From: Chloroflexota bacterium
GTDB taxonomy: Bacteria; Chloroflexota; Dehalococcoidia; SM23-28-2; RBG-16-64-32
Direction of reading: 5' to 3'
Length of the DNA: 64,000 bases
NCBI GenBank assembly: GCA_029262695.1
Contig: JAJCYV010000008.1
Span: 1 to 64,000 of the forward strand
In this document: positions 6,179 through 14,596 of the stretch, in pieces
How the letters are laid out: every line of letters begins with the position of its first letter
Numbering within the stretch: position 1 is the first letter of the stretch
The notes under the pieces: generated by a model
What the model was told of the DNA's origin: nothing
Seen by the model: only the letters and a program-made list of their open reading frames with translations
The model's database searches: none
Position numbers and translations under genes: made by a program

Positions 6179-6925
6179 ATGCGCGTTCTTGTCGTCTCCG
6201 ATGTTCACGCCAACCTCGACGCGCTCGAGGCCGTCCTTCGCGACGCTCGGACCGGCGGTGTGCTCGATGCCGTCTGGAGCCTCGGCGACTGCGTTGGTTA
6301 CGGGCCGCTGCCGGGCGAATGCCTGTCGCGCTTGAGCGACGAGAGCGCCGCGTCCGTGGCGGGCAACCACGAGCGAGCGGCGACCGGCGCGATCAGCGTC
6401 GACGACTTCAATCCGGACGCCCGCGCGTCGGCGCTCTGGACGGCCGACCGTCTCGAGGGGGACGAGAAGGCGTTGCTCGACGCGATGCCGGAGACGCGCA
6501 TCGAGGCGGAATACTTCTCGCTCGTGCACGGGACCCTGCGCCGCCCCATCTGGGAGTACCTGTACTCGGTTGAGGCCGGCGCTGCGCACCTCGCGCTCCA
6601 GCAGACGCCGTTCGGGTTCTGCGGCCACACGCACGTGCCGGCGATCGCGTCGCTCGATGCGGACGCGCCGGGCGGCTGCGACTTCCGTCGCCTGGCGGAC
6701 GGTCAGTCCGTCTCGCTCGACCCGGGGACGAAGGTCGTGATCAACCCCGGCAGTGTCGGCCAGCCGCGCGACGGCGACCCGCGTGCCTCGTACGCCGTCT
6801 ACGACTCAGAGACGCAGAGCGTGACGCTGCGCCGCGTGGAGTACGACATTGGCAGTACGCAGCGGCTGATGGAGAAGGCCGGGCTGCCGCGCTGGCTGAT
6901 CGAGCGGCTGTCAGAGGGCCGCTAG
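6179..6925 (+). CDS. calcineurin-like metallophosphoesterase
   Basis: 248-residue YfcE/MJ0936-type phosphoesterase. Metal ligands are Asp8 and His10 (SDVH), Asp37 (GDCVGYGP), Asn63-His64 (GNHE), a His in VHGTLRR, and the terminal GHTHVP. This is the compact stand-alone form, often active on cyclic or simple phosphodiesters. The frame continues upstream to 5948, but MRVLVVSDVH marks the domain start. TATACT at 6167-6172 lies 6 bases before this ATG, implying a leaderless message. Its stop shares a CTAG with the convergent HExxH gene. Confidence 0.87.
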   Translation: MRVLVVSDVHANLDALEAVLRDARTGGVLDAVWSLGDCVGYGPLPGECLSRLSDESAASVAGNHERAATGAISVDDFNPDARASALWTADRLEGDEKALLDAMPETRIEAEYFSLVHGTLRRPIWEYLYSVEAGAAHLALQQTPFGFCGHTHVPAIASLDADAPGGCDFRRLADGQSVSLDPGTKVVINPGSVGQPRDGDPRASYAVYDSETQSVTLRRVEYDIGSTQRLMEKAGLPRWLIERLSEGR

Positions 6926-8019
6926 CCCAGGTTCGATTCGAACCAGCGCCTGTACTCGGTCCAGTCTGGCAGCACGCTGCCGTCGGGCGCGGCGTAAATC
7001 AACGCCCCGATTGCTGCGAACGCCTCGACCGGGTTTGGCGCGTAGGCCTGGAGGGTCTCGCCGGTCTCGCTCACGTAAGTGAGGTCGGCCCCGTCATAGC
7101 GGAAGATCGCCGCGATCTCGTCCCAGGAGCCGTGCGACCGGCTCGCGAGCTCTTCGTCCGACACCGTCAGCACCCAGCCGGTCGCGGTGATGAAGGAGCG
7201 CATCTCCGCCGCCAGCAGCGCCTGCCCGTAGCTCCCGGAGGGGGCGTCGCGCATCTGGTACGCGTGCAACAGCTCGTGGGCGATCGTCACGCCGTCGGCG
7301 CCGGTCTGCAGGACGATCTGGCTGGCGACGCTGCGGGAGTCGCCGTCCCTGTCCTGAGTGGTGTAGAAGTTGGCGGCGCCGCCACCGTACGGTTGCCATC
7401 CGGCGAGTGTGCGTCCAGCTTCGTTTGAGAGCACGGACAGCGACCCGTGCGAATTGTAAGCTGCCAGCGAGACGACGTTGGCGGGCAACGAGGCGAGTGC
7501 GCTGGCTAGCGCGCCGAGGTTGCGCAACCGCGCCGCTTCGTCAGCGCCCCAGTCCTGGCCGGCGATCACGACGCGCACGCTCCATTTCGACTCGATCTCC
7601 CTCGCCAGCTCAAGCGCCGCGTTGGGCGCCGGAGTTGCGGGGGGCGCGGGGTGCGCGGGGGTGTAGAGGGGCGGCGGCGCAGTCCAGGCTTCGCCGAGCG
7701 TCGGTGCGATAGAAGCGGCCGGCGCGCTGGTGGCTGGTGCGCCGGTAGTCGGTGCGGCGGTGGCTGGAGTGGTGGTAGCCGGTGTGGCGGTGGCCGGAGC
7801 GGTGGTAGCCGGTGTGGCGTGTCCCGCTGCGACGGTGGGTGTGGCGTAGGCGTACGTGGCCTGTCCCGAGTCACCCGTCGTACTGAACGCGATCGCCCCG
7901 GCGATGGCGCCGCTCAGCAGAGCGACGGTTGAGACCGCGGCCAGAAGGCCCTGTGATTGCTTCCACCCTCCCCGGTGGCTCGTCGTACGGCCCCTCTGGC
8001 CAGCCCGGTCTCTGTACAG
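6922..8019 (-). CDS. membrane-anchored/secreted HExxH putative metallopeptidase, CTG start
   Basis: The frame is open from a TAA near 8090 down to 6922 but contains no ATG, GTG or TTG before GTG 7578. GTG 7578 would remove a clear transmembrane or signal segment (residues about 35-57) and the Thr/Pro/Ala-rich linker after it. CTG at 8017-8019 has GGGAGGG at 8027-8033, seven bases away, and is proposed as the start (365 aa). The exported domain has HELLH at about 248-252 and a downstream AAEMRSF Glu at about 272, an HExxH-E zinc arrangement. No peptidase family was recognised. Promoter-proximal direct repeats (8077-8104) suggest response-regulator control. Confidence 0.6.
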   Translation of the reverse strand: MYRDRAGQRGRTTSHRGGWKQSQGLLAAVSTVALLSGAIAGAIAFSTTGDSGQATYAYATPTVAAGHATPATTAPATATPATTTPATAAPTTGAPATSAPAASIAPTLGEAWTAPPPLYTPAHPAPPATPAPNAALELAREIESKWSVRVVIAGQDWGADEAARLRNLGALASALASLPANVVSLAAYNSHGSLSVLSNEAGRTLAGWQPYGGGAANFYTTQDRDGDSRSVASQIVLQTGADGVTIAHELLHAYQMRDAPSGSYGQALLAAEMRSFITATGWVLTVSDEELASRSHGSWDEIAAIFRYDGADLTYVSETGETLQAYAPNPVEAFAAIGALIYAAPDGSVLPDWTEYRRWFESNLG

Positions 8020-9386: not shown

Positions 9387-10784
9387 CTACGCTTCGAGGA
9401 GCACGCGGCGCAGGTGGTCCAGCGGCACGTTGCCACCGCTGACCATGATCACGACCTTCTTGCCGGCGAGGTGCTCCTGGAGCTGCACGGCCGCCGCCGT
9501 CGCCGCCGCACCCGCTTCTTCGGCGATGACGTGCGCGGTGCGGGCCAGCATCAGCATCGCCTCACGGATCTCCGCCTCGCTTACGAGCACGAAGTCGTCG
9601 AGGCGGTCGACCAGCGTCCGTACGGCGGGATGGTAGGCGGCGCCTGTCGCCAGGCCCTCGGCGGCCGTGTCGATGCCGGCCGCGCTCAGCGTCCGCGACT
9701 TCCACGACTCGTAGACCGCTGGTGCACCGGCCGCCTGCACGCCGATCACCTCGAGGCCGGGCCGCAGTTCCTTGGCGACGAGGCAGTGTGCCAGCGCGCC
9801 GCTGCCGCCGCCGATCGGCACGATGATGACGTCGACCTCAGGCAGGTCTTCGATGATCTCGATGCTCACCGTGGCGACGCCGGTGACGAGCCGGGGCGCG
9901 TTTGAGTGGTGGATGTACTGCACGCCCTCGCCGGCGGCGTGCTCTTCGGCCCACTCGCGCGCTTCCTCGAAGTTGGCGCCGTGGAACAGCACCTCGGCGC
10001 CCAGCGCGCGCATCGACTCTACCTTCATCGGGTTCGCTTCGTCGGGCATGACGATAGTGCACTTGATGCCCGCCAGCTTCGCACCGTAGGCCAGCGACTG
10101 ACCGTGGTTCCCGGTCGACGCGCCGATGATCCCCCGCGCACGCTCTTCCTCTGTCATGCTCGCGGACAGGTAGACGCCGCCACGCACCTTGAAGGCGCCG
10201 ATCGGTTGTAGGTTTTCGAGCTTGAGCCACGCCTCGAAGCCCAGCTCGCGTGACATCGCCGGGTTGCGGACCAGCGGCGTGCGCTGGAGGTGCGGCTCCA
10301 GCAGGTCCTTAGCACGGTAGGCGTCGGCGAGCGTCGGTAGCTGCTCGATACGTCTGTCGTAGACCATGCCGATGGGGTTCTCCCGCAGGTTGGCGGCGCA
10401 CACGCGCTCCAGTTTGTCGGCGAGCTCCTGAGGCAGGAATTCGGTGCGCAGGAAGCCCATGCGTTCGTAGTAGGCGGGTAGGTCCGTCGTGATGTAGACT
10501 TCGTCCTGGGGGAAACGCCGGATCAGCTCCCGCGTGATCCGGTCGCCCAGCCCCTGCGAGCGCTCCTCCTCGATCACGGCGACGCTGCCGAGTTCGTGCG
10601 TCTTCTCGTATGGCTTGATGCGGCCGAAGGCGATGATGCGCCCGTCGCGGCGGAGCGTGATGAACTGCTCGGGCGCCAGCCGTTCGCCGTCGAGCCGCAG
10701 GCGTTCGATCGTCTCGGCGATGAAGGGCATGTCGGCGGCGGCCGCCGCCGTGAAGTCGGGGTCGGGCGCTGATTTCGTGGTCAC
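9387..10784 (-). CDS. GNAT acetyltransferase - threonine/serine dehydratase fusion
   Basis: 465 residues carrying two domains. Residues about 10-140 form a GNAT fold with an acetyl-CoA loop in VAVIEEERSQGLGDR. Residues about 148-465 form a fold-type II PLP lyase: GAFKVRGG with PLP-Lys at about 199, STGNHGQ, and the phosphate-binding GGGSGAL. The lyase half matches catabolic threonine/serine dehydratases, deaminating Thr or Ser to 2-oxoacids; no ACT domain is present. TACAAT at 10792-10797 overlaps the first ATG (10793), so GTG 10784, 7 bases after the box, is preferred. The joined layout is unusual. Confidence 0.85.
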   Translation of the reverse strand: MTTKSAPDPDFTAAAAADMPFIAETIERLRLDGERLAPEQFITLRRDGRIIAFGRIKPYEKTHELGSVAVIEEERSQGLGDRITRELIRRFPQDEVYITTDLPAYYERMGFLRTEFLPQELADKLERVCAANLRENPIGMVYDRRIEQLPTLADAYRAKDLLEPHLQRTPLVRNPAMSRELGFEAWLKLENLQPIGAFKVRGGVYLSASMTEEERARGIIGASTGNHGQSLAYGAKLAGIKCTIVMPDEANPMKVESMRALGAEVLFHGANFEEAREWAEEHAAGEGVQYIHHSNAPRLVTGVATVSIEIIEDLPEVDVIIVPIGGGSGALAHCLVAKELRPGLEVIGVQAAGAPAVYESWKSRTLSAAGIDTAAEGLATGAAYHPAVRTLVDRLDDFVLVSEAEIREAMLMLARTAHVIAEEAGAAATAAAVQLQEHLAGKKVVIMVSGGNVPLDHLRRVLLEA

Positions 10785-10791
10785 GGTCCCC

Positions 10792-10797
10792 ATTGTA
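10792..10797 (-). promoter_or_regulatory. -10 box of leaderless dehydratase-fusion promoter
   Basis: TACAAT on the minus strand. ATG 10793 lies inside the box; GTG 10784 lies 7 bases after it. Confidence 0.5.
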
Positions 10798-10873: not shown

Positions 10874-11164
10874 ATGCCCCGCTACGTAGTCCTCTACAAC
10901 TTCACGGATCAGGGCCTGAAGAGCATCAAGGACACGGTCAGCCGCGCCGCCGAGGTGCGCAAGGCCAACGAATCTCGCGGCTTCAAGGTCATCGGCACCT
11001 ACTGGACGCAGGGCGAGTACGACATCGTTTCGATCGTCGAGGCGCCGAGCGAGGAGTCGATGCTGGCCGGCCTCTTCAACATCGCCGAGACGGGAAACGT
11101 CCACAGCACCACGCTTCGCGCCTTCGACGAGTCGGAGATGGCGAGCGCGCTCTCCAAGTCCTAG
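10874..11164 (+). CDS. GYD domain protein
   Basis: 96-residue single-domain protein with the family's Gly-Tyr/Glu-Asp block seen here as GEYDIVSIVEAPSEE. GYD proteins are small ferredoxin-like-fold proteins of unknown role, often annotated near oxidoreductases. ATG 10874 has AAAGGAGG at 10860-10867. A TACAAT about 45 bases upstream gives a normal leadered transcript, unlike many neighbours. It diverges from the dehydratase fusion and ends three bases before the convergent oxidoreductase. Confidence 0.85.
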   Translation: MPRYVVLYNFTDQGLKSIKDTVSRAAEVRKANESRGFKVIGTYWTQGEYDIVSIVEAPSEESMLAGLFNIAETGNVHSTTLRAFDESEMASALSKS

Positions 11165-11167
11165 GCG

Positions 11168-12577
11168 CTAGGTCGCGGCGTCCTCTGCCGCCTTCTCGTG
11201 CGGCCCCTCGGCCGGTTCAGCGGCTTCTGTCGCGGCTTCTGGCTGCTCGCCTGACGCCTGCCGGGGTTCGCTGTCCTCCGCCGCTTCGCTGGGCTCGGCG
11301 CTCTCTGCGGTTGCTGGTTGGGCGGTCGCCTCTGTGCCGGATTCAGCTCCGGCCTGTGGCTTGGCCTCCGCCGGGGCTTCCCTGGGGGGTTCGGCCGCCG
11401 CTCGTGGCTCAGGCTTCGCCGGGGCTTCCTTCGGGGGTTCGGCTGGAGCCGGCGGCGTCTCCGCGCGCGGCTTCGGTTGCGGTTCGCCCTTGAGCCAGTA
11501 GTCGACGGGCTTGCGCGAGTCCGTCTCAAGCGGCAAGGACACGCGCGATCCCGTGCGTGCCGACCGGTACGCCGCGCAGATGATTTCGAGCACGGCGCGG
11601 CCGTCTTCGCCCGTGAGCATCGGCCGCTTCTCGTTCTCGATGCAGTCGGCGAAGTGCGCCATCTCCTGCGGAAAGCCATAGTTCCACGCCTCGTCGAAGC
11701 TGGTCCAGGTCCAGCCGCGTGTTTGTTCAGCCTTTTCGCCCGCGTCGTCGTAGCCAATGGCGCTGTAGGTCTGCAGCGCGCCGCCACGGGCGATATCCGC
11801 GACGGTGAGACCTTTGGAGCCGTAGATCTCCGCCCGGTCGTCGAGGCCGCCGGCGCGCGCCCAGGCGTTCTCCGCTACGCCCAGGCCGCCCCTCGGGTGC
11901 CTCTTCGACTCGGCGAAGCGGAGCATGACGACGGTATGGTCGTCGCCTTTAGTGCGCCTCCCGTGCACGAAGTTGCTCGCCTCCGCGTAGACGGACGCGA
12001 TCCGTGTGTTGCCGAAGACCCAGCGGCAGTAAGCGATGGAGTGGCAGCCCATGTCCATCAGTACGCCGCCGCCGGAGCGGTTGATGTCCCAGAACCAGTC
12101 CGAATGCGGGCCGAAATGGCACTCCAGCTGCCGTACATAATAGACATCGCCCAGCGCGCCCCGGTCGGCCAGCTGCTTGGCGCGCACGTATTTCGGTGCG
12201 AAGCAGAGGTTTTCGCCGTACATCAGGATCACGCCCGCCTTCTTGCAGGCTTCGATCATGCGGTCGCACTCGGCGAGACTCATCGCCATCGGCTTGTCGA
12301 CCAGGACGTGCTTACCGGCCGCCGCGGCGTCGATCGTCACCTGCGCGTGCAGGTCGTTGGGGCAGGCGATCGTGATCGCGTCGACCAGGTCGCTGGACAG
12401 CATGTCCTTGTAGTCGGCAAAGGCGTGCTCAACCTCGAAGCGCCGGCGGAACTCCCAGGCGTGCTCGGCGTTTGGAGAGGCGACGGCCGTCAGCTCCACT
12501 CCCGGCACCTGCCGCAGCCCTTCTGCGTGCGCCGCCGCGACAAAACGAGATCCAACGATCCCCACGCGGATGCTCAA
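11168..12577 (-). CDS. Gfo/Idh/MocA-family oxidoreductase with long Pro/Ala/Glu tail
   Basis: 469 residues. The first about 365 are a standard NAD(P)-dependent Gfo/Idh/MocA oxidoreductase: Rossmann GIVGSRFVAAAHAEG, the cofactor/substrate block VDKPMAMS with the family Lys-Pro, and the later GGGVLMDMGCHSIAYCRW with the conserved His. Residues about 366-469 are a low-complexity Pro/Ala/Glu/Lys tail absent from typical members (330-390 aa), encoded partly by a tandem DNA repeat at about 11360-11453. It probably acts on a sugar or cyclitol. The tail may be a flexible tether or the result of repeat expansion. Confidence 0.87.
   Translation of the reverse strand: MSIRVGIVGSRFVAAAHAEGLRQVPGVELTAVASPNAEHAWEFRRRFEVEHAFADYKDMLSSDLVDAITIACPNDLHAQVTIDAAAAGKHVLVDKPMAMSLAECDRMIEACKKAGVILMYGENLCFAPKYVRAKQLADRGALGDVYYVRQLECHFGPHSDWFWDINRSGGGVLMDMGCHSIAYCRWVFGNTRIASVYAEASNFVHGRRTKGDDHTVVMLRFAESKRHPRGGLGVAENAWARAGGLDDRAEIYGSKGLTVADIARGGALQTYSAIGYDDAGEKAEQTRGWTWTSFDEAWNYGFPQEMAHFADCIENEKRPMLTGEDGRAVLEIICAAYRSARTGSRVSLPLETDSRKPVDYWLKGEPQPKPRAETPPAPAEPPKEAPAKPEPRAAAEPPREAPAEAKPQAGAESGTEATAQPATAESAEPSEAAEDSEPRQASGEQPEAATEAAEPAEGPHEKAAEDAAT
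11360..11453. repeat. imperfect tandem repeat inside oxidoreductase tail
   Basis: Two imperfect units of about 45-50 bases, each containing GCCGGGGCTTCC then GGGGGTTCGGC, encode the Pro/Ala/Glu-rich tail. Repeat expansion is a likely origin of the tail. Confidence 0.55.
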
Positions 12578-12726
12578 GGCGCCCCCCTTTCCGGCGTTAC
12601 GATTCGCCGACGATGGCTCTGCCTGACTAACTAAGGTGCCGTTATTCTAATACGGCCGTCGCCCCTGCGGGTTGCAGGATGGCTGCGATTGTCACAGACT
12701 ACCGAGCGCAGGAAGGGAGCGAGACG

Positions 12727-13536
12727 ATGAACCCAAACGGGAAAGTAGCACTGATCACGGGCGCAGGCTCCGGCATTGGCCGGGCGACGGCGCTGCTGCT
12801 GGCGGAGAACGGCGCTTCGGTCGTTGTCGCCGACGTTGACGAAAGCGGCGGCAACGAAACGGTAGGGATGGTGAAGGCGGCGGGCGGCGAGGCGGCGTTC
12901 GTGCACGCGGACGTGACGAGCCGCGACGACGTGGAGGCGATGGTCGCCTTCACGAAGAAGACGTACGGCGGTCTCGATATCGCATACAACAACGCCGGCG
13001 TCGGCACGCCGGGCGCTCGCTTTCCCGACGCGGCACCCCAGGACTGGGAGCGCACACTCCTGATCGACCTCCTGGCGGTCGTCGCTTGCATCCAGGTGCA
13101 GGTGCCGGTGATGAAGGAACGCGGCGGCGGCGTCATCGTCAGCACGGCCTCCATCGCCGGCCTCATGGGCTACATGCCGGACCCGATCTACGCCGCCGCC
13201 AAGCACGGCGTCGTCGGACTCACCCGTTCGATGGAGTTCCTCCAGGCCGAGGCGAACATCCGCGTCAACTGCGTTTGCCCGGGTGTCGTAGACACGCCGA
13301 TGATCCGCAAGGTTCGCGACAATTCCGACCCGGAAGCGAAGGCGCGCGCGGAGGCGATGGTCGCCGCCATGCCGCTGATCGAGGCTGGGACGATCGCTGA
13401 GACTGTTCTCGATCTGATCCGCGACGACTCCGCCAACGGCGTGGCGATGGCGGTGACGTACGGCCGCCCACCGCGCCAGGTGGAGGCGCCGATCCGCTTC
13501 GGGCGCCCTGATCCCGCGCAGGAGCGCCGCGGCTAA
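12727..13536 (+). CDS. SDR family oxidoreductase
   Basis: 269-residue classical short-chain dehydrogenase. It has the cofactor loop TGAGSGIGRA at about 11-20, an Asp after strand 2 (VADVDE) that favours NAD(H), NNAGVG, and the catalytic Ser plus YAAAK. The C-terminus is extended with an extra Pro/Arg-rich end. The frame opens at 12679, but ATG 12727 with GGAAGGGAG upstream begins exactly at the domain. Substrate unknown. It is divergent from the tailed oxidoreductase. Confidence 0.88.
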   Translation: MNPNGKVALITGAGSGIGRATALLLAENGASVVVADVDESGGNETVGMVKAAGGEAAFVHADVTSRDDVEAMVAFTKKTYGGLDIAYNNAGVGTPGARFPDAAPQDWERTLLIDLLAVVACIQVQVPVMKERGGGVIVSTASIAGLMGYMPDPIYAAAKHGVVGLTRSMEFLQAEANIRVNCVCPGVVDTPMIRKVRDNSDPEAKARAEAMVAAMPLIEAGTIAETVLDLIRDDSANGVAMAVTYGRPPRQVEAPIRFGRPDPAQERRG

Positions 13537-13633
13537 GCCGTAGCGCTTGACGGGCTCGCCTGTGGGGCGCTACCCTTCACCGCATCGAGACGCCCGACGA
13601 GCGGTGCGTCCGCATCCCGGAAGGGGGCCCCAA

Positions 13634-14596
13634 GTGGCAGCTTCACGTACGCTAATCTCCATCGCAGTGGCTGCGGTTATCGCTCTGGCAGCCGTCGTGT
13701 TCATCAGCAACTCGCCCGCAAGCGAACCACGGACGGCGCTGGCCGGGCCGTGCGGGGCGGACCCGCTCCTGTTCTTCTCACCGATCGACGGTCCGCCATT
13801 GGATGAGACTTTCCTCGTCGGTGCGGAGCCCGGCAGCGCATACCAGGAGAAGTTTAGGATCGTCACTGATCCGGAGGAACTGCCCGACGGAAAGCCGCCG
13901 GTGACGATCTCGGTCGTCGAAAAGCAGCCAGGCTCCGGGCATGCAGGTATCGTCACCGGCTTCAATCCTTCGGAGAGTGACGGATCCTTCACGACCACGG
14001 CCGTCACGGGCATCGCGGCGGGTGTGCCCGCTGGCGTGTACGAGTACGAGATAGAGATCGACTGCCACGGACAGATCACGGAGATCCCTTACGACGTCTA
14101 CGTGGGTACTTGCCCGGCGCCGAGTTCCTCCGGCTTCCAGATGTCGGGCATCAGCGGAACACCGACGCCATCGCCGGAACCGTTCCCCGAGACGTGCGAA
14201 GAGCCGACGCCAACACCCACGCCTTCGCCAACTGCCTCGCCATCGCCGACGCCGACCGCGGCGCCCGGCCTCGACGCGACCTGGGGGGACAACAACTGCT
14301 CGCTGCAGGTGGACCCGATCGACTCGTTGCTCGTGCTGCGCGGCGACGCCGGCCTGTCGTCGAATACAGGCGACTGCCCGGACATGGGAGAGATCTCGCA
14401 TACTCGGGCGAAGGTCGTCTTCAGACAGGGCATTCAGGGCAACGGTCTGGACCTCCCCTGGGGCGACGTTGACTGCACAGGCGACATGAGCCCGGTTGAC
14501 TCGCTCAAGATCTTGCGTCACGACGCGGGCCTCAGCGTCCCGCAGGAGCCGATCTGCTTCGCGATCGGCAGCGAGGTGACGGTCACGGAGTTATAG
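13634..14596 (+). CDS. secreted protein with Cys-containing dockerin-like pair
   Basis: 320 residues from GTG 13634, which follows a purine-rich GGAAGGGGG and opens directly into a signal peptide (about 1-37). An unrecognised domain (about 40-180), rich in beta-type sequence with several Cys, is followed by a Thr/Pro/Ser linker. Then come two dockerin-like calcium loops, GDNNCSLQVDPIDSLLVL and GDVDCTGDMSPVDSLKIL. Each has Cys at loop position 4, Asp at positions 1 and 12, and a second Cys later (NTGDC, EPIC). The same pair occurs at the N-terminus of the 59431-61380 product. A terminator follows at 14617. Confidence 0.75.
   Translation: MAASRTLISIAVAAVIALAAVVFISNSPASEPRTALAGPCGADPLLFFSPIDGPPLDETFLVGAEPGSAYQEKFRIVTDPEELPDGKPPVTISVVEKQPGSGHAGIVTGFNPSESDGSFTTTAVTGIAAGVPAGVYEYEIEIDCHGQITEIPYDVYVGTCPAPSSSGFQMSGISGTPTPSPEPFPETCEEPTPTPTPSPTASPSPTPTAAPGLDATWGDNNCSLQVDPIDSLLVLRGDAGLSSNTGDCPDMGEISHTRAKVVFRQGIQGNGLDLPWGDVDCTGDMSPVDSLKILRHDAGLSVPQEPICFAIGSEVTVTEL

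Follow-up and report, generated by a model that had tools for sequence, protein, structure and literature searches.

The question raised by this locus is why a GNAT acetyltransferase should share one polypeptide with a PLP-dependent enzyme of the threonine/serine dehydratase kind, and whether the two halves work together. The gene lies in a Chloroflexota contig, of which the stretch analysed here (64,000 nucleotides, hereafter the window) holds the complete frame together with its neighbours.

The fused gene and its parts

The longest open reading frame of the locus runs on the minus strand from 9387 to 10793, begins with an ATG at 10793 and encodes 468 amino acids (Table 1). The original prediction had placed the gene at 9387 to 10784 and given no strand; its coordinate 9387 stands, and its other end is explained by a GTG three codons inside the ATG. 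That one uninterrupted frame carries two complete domains, as had been proposed, was borne out by the domain matches: the PALP domain scored 260 bits against a Pfam gathering score of 35, and Acetyltransf_1 (residues 37-114, E 1.1e-8) scored 35.8 bits against 20.7, with a full set of PLP motifs and a canonical P-loop in the window protein. The Pfam scan of the fused protein returned no domain besides GNAT and PALP above the gathering score. With GC3 at 0.90 for the GNAT part and 0.89 for the PALP part, neither resembles an out-of-frame run-on.

Table 1. Features of the fusion locus in window coordinates.
Feature	Position	Strand	Basis and remarks
Fused GNAT-PALP coding sequence, 468 aa	9387..10793	-	Open reading frame and Pfam; kept in 12 genomes
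GNAT domain, residues ~12-148	10350..10760	-	Pfam Acetyltransf_1 and Acetyltransf_7, alignments; Glu67, P-loop R78-x-x-G-x-G83
Short linker, residues 149-165	10299..10349	-	Open and in frame in 12/12 homologues
Fold-II PLP (PALP) domain, residues 166-453	9435..10298	-	Pfam E 3.4e-77; Schiff-base Lys202; predicted fold like TdcB 2gn0
Lys202 codon (PLP lysine, in GAFKVRGG)	10188..10190	-	Invariant in 9/9 rows of one PALP alignment
GYD-domain protein	10874..11164	+	Pfam GYD E 1.9e-26; adjoins the fusion, opposite strand, in 8/12 genomes
Gfo/Idh/MocA oxidoreductase, co-occurring partner	11168..12577	-	Domain match and co-occurrence
SDR oxidoreductase	12679..13536	+	Relative in 6/16 loci compared

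Conservation and history of the fusion

The fused protein was searched for in 100 genomes, namely the window's own and 99 relatives, and was found at full length in 12 of them (the window's included), which represent six genera of one Chloroflexota order. Eleven carriers belong to the window's family (G000, G001, G004, G005 and G008-G014) and one, G018, to another family of the same order; the Chloroflexi records L053, L054 and L055 were treated as G001, G011 and G008 and counted once. In all 12 genomes the fused protein is a single open reading frame free of internal stops, with 62-88% identity of the homologues to the window protein. The conservation that had been proposed as a check was therefore present, and the case that had been named as fatal, a fusion found in one genome only with a missed stop between the domains, is excluded by the 11 further genomes that carry the fused frame. 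The same homologues refute an assembly or frameshift artefact, an explanation for which no supporting point was found and which can practically be dismissed. Two genomes of the same genus (G002 and G003) and two of the same family (G006 and G007) lacked the fusion; these bins are 72-84% complete, and the absence may reflect incompleteness. Eight pairwise comparisons gave dN/dS values of 0.05-0.28 for the GNAT part and 0.08-0.19 for the PALP part, indicating purifying selection on both domains.

In a tree computed without the long branches of EutB, IlvA and an Elusimicrobia row, the fused PALP domains formed one clade with support of 93/90, which makes one fusion event the simplest history, at a support that is not strong. 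A single event is also all that would be needed if two useful enzymes had been joined by chance in one ancestor and had remained uncoupled ever since, and the halves indeed persist apart in the sister genomes G015 and G021. Such a passive tether nevertheless sits poorly with the retention of the fusion, linker in frame, across all these carriers at identities as low as 62%, and we consider it improbable.

Among 393 genomes of the class, GNAT matches of at least 54% identity were confined to the 12 fusion genomes and the unfused G015 and G021, and all other matches listed had at most 40% identity. Beyond Chloroflexota, the search covered a pattern-based genome_contigs scan, 348 genomes from G741's phylum, six single genomes and plasmids; the 348 genomes yielded one GNAT match (E 1e-12), located in a 167-aa frame. 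As far as tested, the fusion appears restricted to one order, coverage beyond Chloroflexota being thin and such as to miss independent fusions of PALP with a different GNAT. A literature search found no relevant account of such a GNAT-dehydratase fusion, and we regard it as a new domain architecture made of known enzyme kinds.

Several candidates for further fusions were rejected. A plasmid match in S. meliloti (apparent identity 91%) proved to be eutB, starting from 1750 in its locus, with an upstream extension and no annotated fusion. Long open frames at weaker GNAT matches were opened in G622, G527, G680 and G618, and none matched the PALP part of the query. The frame in G527 (L145:1487-3535) is open over 683 residues, begins with an ArgA-like GNAT and lies downstream of an argininosuccinate-synthase-like ORF; in related genomes, weak GNAT matches lie within open frames of about this length.

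The PLP-dependent half

All PLP motifs are present in the PALP half: Lys202 within GAFKVRGG, the ASTGNHGQ motif, the GGGS loop and SGGN. Sequence and predicted fold group it with TdcB, IlvA and serine racemase, and structure comparison matched the predicted fold to TdcB (PDB 2gn0) with an E-value of 5.2e-31, the model having a pLDDT mostly of 75-96 over this part and a weak stretch at residues 357-386. Of 45 NCBIfam models matched, the 25 listed all gave this half a score below cut-off, the best being PRK06110 (266/317 bits), TIGR01127 (258/379) and the TdcB model (240/453), which leaves it under the curated scores of the named threonine ammonia-lyase equivalogs. Judged by its sequence, the PALP half belongs to a dehydratase-like subfamily. 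With TdcB it shares the fold, the PLP lysine, the glycine loop and the lack of an ACT domain, and it differs in its N-terminal GNAT, in a Thr instead of Ala before GNHGQ, in GGGSG instead of GGGGL and in a distinct APAVYxSWK loop. The Thr preceding GNH is shared with EutB, whereas TdcB and IlvA have Ala there. The loop APAVYxSWK...EGLAT is common to unfused relatives and foreign to TdcB, IlvA and EutB, and the enzyme may accordingly act on something other than serine or threonine.

Stand-alone dehydratases of the same PALP subfamily (L056-L060) are 40-49% identical over the PALP part and carry the APAVYESWK and GLAT signature, and the best plasmid matches, such as an annotated threonine/serine dehydratase of Halomicrobium, are 42-48% identical to the same part; unlike the fused protein, these dehydratases have no GNAT domain. 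By eye, unfused PALP relatives have no steady neighbours. The remaining four PALP matches of the window's genome reach just 26-29% identity with the fused domain, which leaves the latter as the only close dehydratase-like PALP found there.

Threonine dehydratases that bear ACT domains are biosynthetic; TdcB and other catabolic threonine/serine dehydratases have none. The Pfam scan detected no ACT domain, and the protein ends only 15 residues past PALP, which sets it apart from the IlvA type. The original prediction had contrasted the N-terminal acetyltransferase with the C-terminal ACT domains usual in threonine dehydratases; this contrast was misleading, since catabolic forms normally have none. 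Citramalate synthase (CimA), which the lineage possesses, scored above the curated cut-off in 19/25 genomes, including the window's and 7/12 fusion genomes, and IlvD did so in 20/25, again with the window's among them. With CimA present, isoleucine can be made without threonine deamination, which makes a catabolic role likelier. Given CimA and IlvD in the lineage and the missing ACT domain, an ACT-regulated role in the isoleucine pathway was judged unlikely, and the fused dehydratase is probably not the deaminase of that pathway.

The acetyltransferase half

The P-loop R78-x-x-G-x-G is canonical in the window protein and places this half in the GNAT superfamily. Glu67, invariant across the aligned rows, has the position and spacing from the P-loop of the GCN5 general base. 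The first P-loop glycine is replaced by Ala in G011 and by Arg in G013 (2/12), hence some carriers may have lost acetyl transfer or be able to do without it. Modelled alone from four sequences, the GNAT half reached a mean pLDDT of 47, a quality insufficient for searching by fold, and its blocks ranged from 27 to 74 in the full-length model. Against solved structures, its profile matched SACOL1063 best (E 2.6e-5), followed by the amino-acid acetyltransferase 5yge (E 8e-4). The nearest NCBIfam model was ArsN2 (E 8.5e-8, 31.9/125 bits); like it, the ArgA-type models PRK05279 (19/344 bits) and PRK07757 (14/154) remained far below cut-off, and so did a weak match to the protein acetyltransferase RimI. 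ArgA-like amino-acid N-acetyltransferases and ArsN2 are thus among the best profile neighbours of this half, from which it differs by these low scores and by being joined to a PLP enzyme.

The likeness to ArgA-type enzymes would be accounted for if the GNAT half served as the N-acetylglutamate synthase of the lineage, with its fusion partner irrelevant. The ArgA-model score of 19/344 bits speaks against this, as does the presence of ArgJ above cut-off in 23/25 genomes, with or without the fusion. The window's genome moreover has another ArgA-like GNAT of 157 aa about 3.5 kb before argC-argJ-argB-argD (assigned by eye, except ArgJ). In view of ArgJ and of this separate GNAT near the arg genes, a role in the arginine pathway was judged unlikely, and that of N-acetylglutamate synthase very unlikely. 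On the side of an amino-acid acetyltransferase more generally, a stand-alone GNAT of 39% identity in G369 lies downstream of an argininosuccinate-synthase-like ORF, named by eye.

Bacterial Pat enzymes switch off metabolic enzymes. By analogy, and along the regulatory lines of the original prediction, the GNAT could acetylate a lysine in the PALP domain to which it is joined, or sense acetyl-CoA, with deamination tracking the acetyl-CoA level. Fusions of GNAT with regulatory domains are described as an established coupling of acetylation to metabolism (PMC6434083, PMC8556138). The ACT-GNAT proteins and AAPatA, presented as amino-acid-sensing protein acetyltransferases built of GNAT and an ACT sensor, resemble the fusion in joining GNAT to an amino-acid-binding part; their partner is a sensor and not a catalytic-type PLP domain, and the domain order is reversed (as outlined in PMC6434083). 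In the scheme of types I-V given for bacterial protein acetyltransferases, the GNAT either stands alone or is partnered by an acyl-CoA-synthetase domain, a ligand-binding domain or a second GNAT (PMC8556138); with PALP as its partner, the fused protein falls outside these types as there set out. In the Pat fusions of that account, GNAT is joined not to the target enzyme but to a domain that binds a ligand or to an inactive synthetase domain (PMC8556138), and the closest models to the GNAT half are amino-acid or small-molecule acetyltransferases, although RimI matches weakly.

A further point on the regulatory side comes from the genomes in which the halves are split. G015 and G021, which belong to one genus, carry PALP (55-56% identity) and GNAT (54%) as separate, unlinked genes, the lone GNAT being located between nuoE and nuoF in both (L074:8538-9098 in G015 and L076:8333-9016 in G021). 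Elsewhere in the 25-genome set, loci with both nuoE and nuoF have the two close together and no GNAT match in between. This second metabolic enzyme pair would fit an enzyme-modifying module. The presence of the GNAT beside at least two different partners marks it as a movable module and favours an activity of its own. Taken as a whole, nothing in the sequence favours regulation by acetyl-CoA over a second catalytic activity, and we regard the regulatory role as rather unlikely. Slightly less probable still would be a self-coupled enzyme, whose GNAT either acetylates PALP, setting deamination to the acetyl-CoA level, or traps at the PLP site an amine or the reactive enamine, with the module put to a second use next to NuoE/NuoF in a sister genus.

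Gene neighbourhood and the associated oxidoreductase

Fusion, GYD-domain, Gfo/Idh/MocA and SDR genes lie in this recurrent order. Relatives of the Gfo/Idh/MocA protein with at least 67% identity occur in 12/12 fusion genomes compared with 1/13 of the others, the one case being a partial frame in G023; in G015 and G021 its relatives reach just 35% identity. Its nearest NCBIfam models, inositol 2-dehydrogenase and UDP-GlcNAc 3-dehydrogenase, were matched below cut-off. The gene lies within 1 kb of the fusion in eight genomes and about 6.5 kb off in G009; in G001, G011 and G012 it is on another contig, the fusion gene being there at or near a contig end. Where bins are incomplete, a shared pattern of presence for adjacent genes can be due to a missing contig. 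Oxidoreductase, fusion and ceramidase-like genes are co-directional with short gaps in G005 and G018, and in the latter a 120-aa ORF separates oxidoreductase and fusion. The ceramidase-like gene follows in four loci, and genes for a DegT aminotransferase, a PIG-L-like or NagA deacetylase and an HpcH/HpaI aldolase are nearby in a few. We infer from these assignments that the neighbourhood looks like one of sugar or amino-sugar catabolism.

Other features of the surroundings are recorded here. The window's Gfo/Idh/MocA protein (11168-12577) has a Pro/Ala/Glu-rich C-terminal tail of about 110 residues, absent from its 358-aa relative in G014. A 349-aa ORF at 13547-14596, with no Pfam match, contains a Thr/Pro-rich stretch and, by eye, two dockerin-like repeats (WGD...D...DSL.ILR). 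Another ORF with no Pfam match (218 aa, 6922-7578) has a relative near the fusion in G001 of the same genus.

Proposed role of the fused enzyme

The account we tentatively prefer, at a confidence just short of even, is that of a bifunctional enzyme, in which a catabolic 2-amino-3-hydroxy-acid ammonia-lyase is tethered to an ArgA/ArsN2-like acetyltransferase and associated with a sugar or amino-sugar oxidation cluster; both activities, their substrates and the pathway of the cluster are what we infer. The PLP domain would convert a 2-amino-3-hydroxy acid, be it L-serine, L-threonine or a relative derived from a sugar, into a 2-oxo acid and ammonia in a catabolic reaction, and the GNAT domain, of the amino-acid N-acetyltransferase kind, would transfer the acetyl group of acetyl-CoA to an amine of the same pool. 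The fused protein would work together with the sugar-type Gfo/Idh/MocA oxidoreductase encoded beside it. A point against this bifunctional account is that the lone GNAT has nuoE and nuoF, not amino-acid genes, as its neighbours in G015 and G021.

A fusion of such stability predicts that the two activities belong together. Should the domains be merely tethered, the protein would be an ordinary bifunctional enzyme; should the GNAT modify the half it is joined to, the protein would be an unusual case of a PLP enzyme that regulates itself. The fusion also offers a way into the pathway around a conserved, unnamed sugar-type oxidoreductase, and would link the use of acetyl-CoA to the release of ammonia from a hydroxy-amino acid in Chloroflexota that have been little studied.
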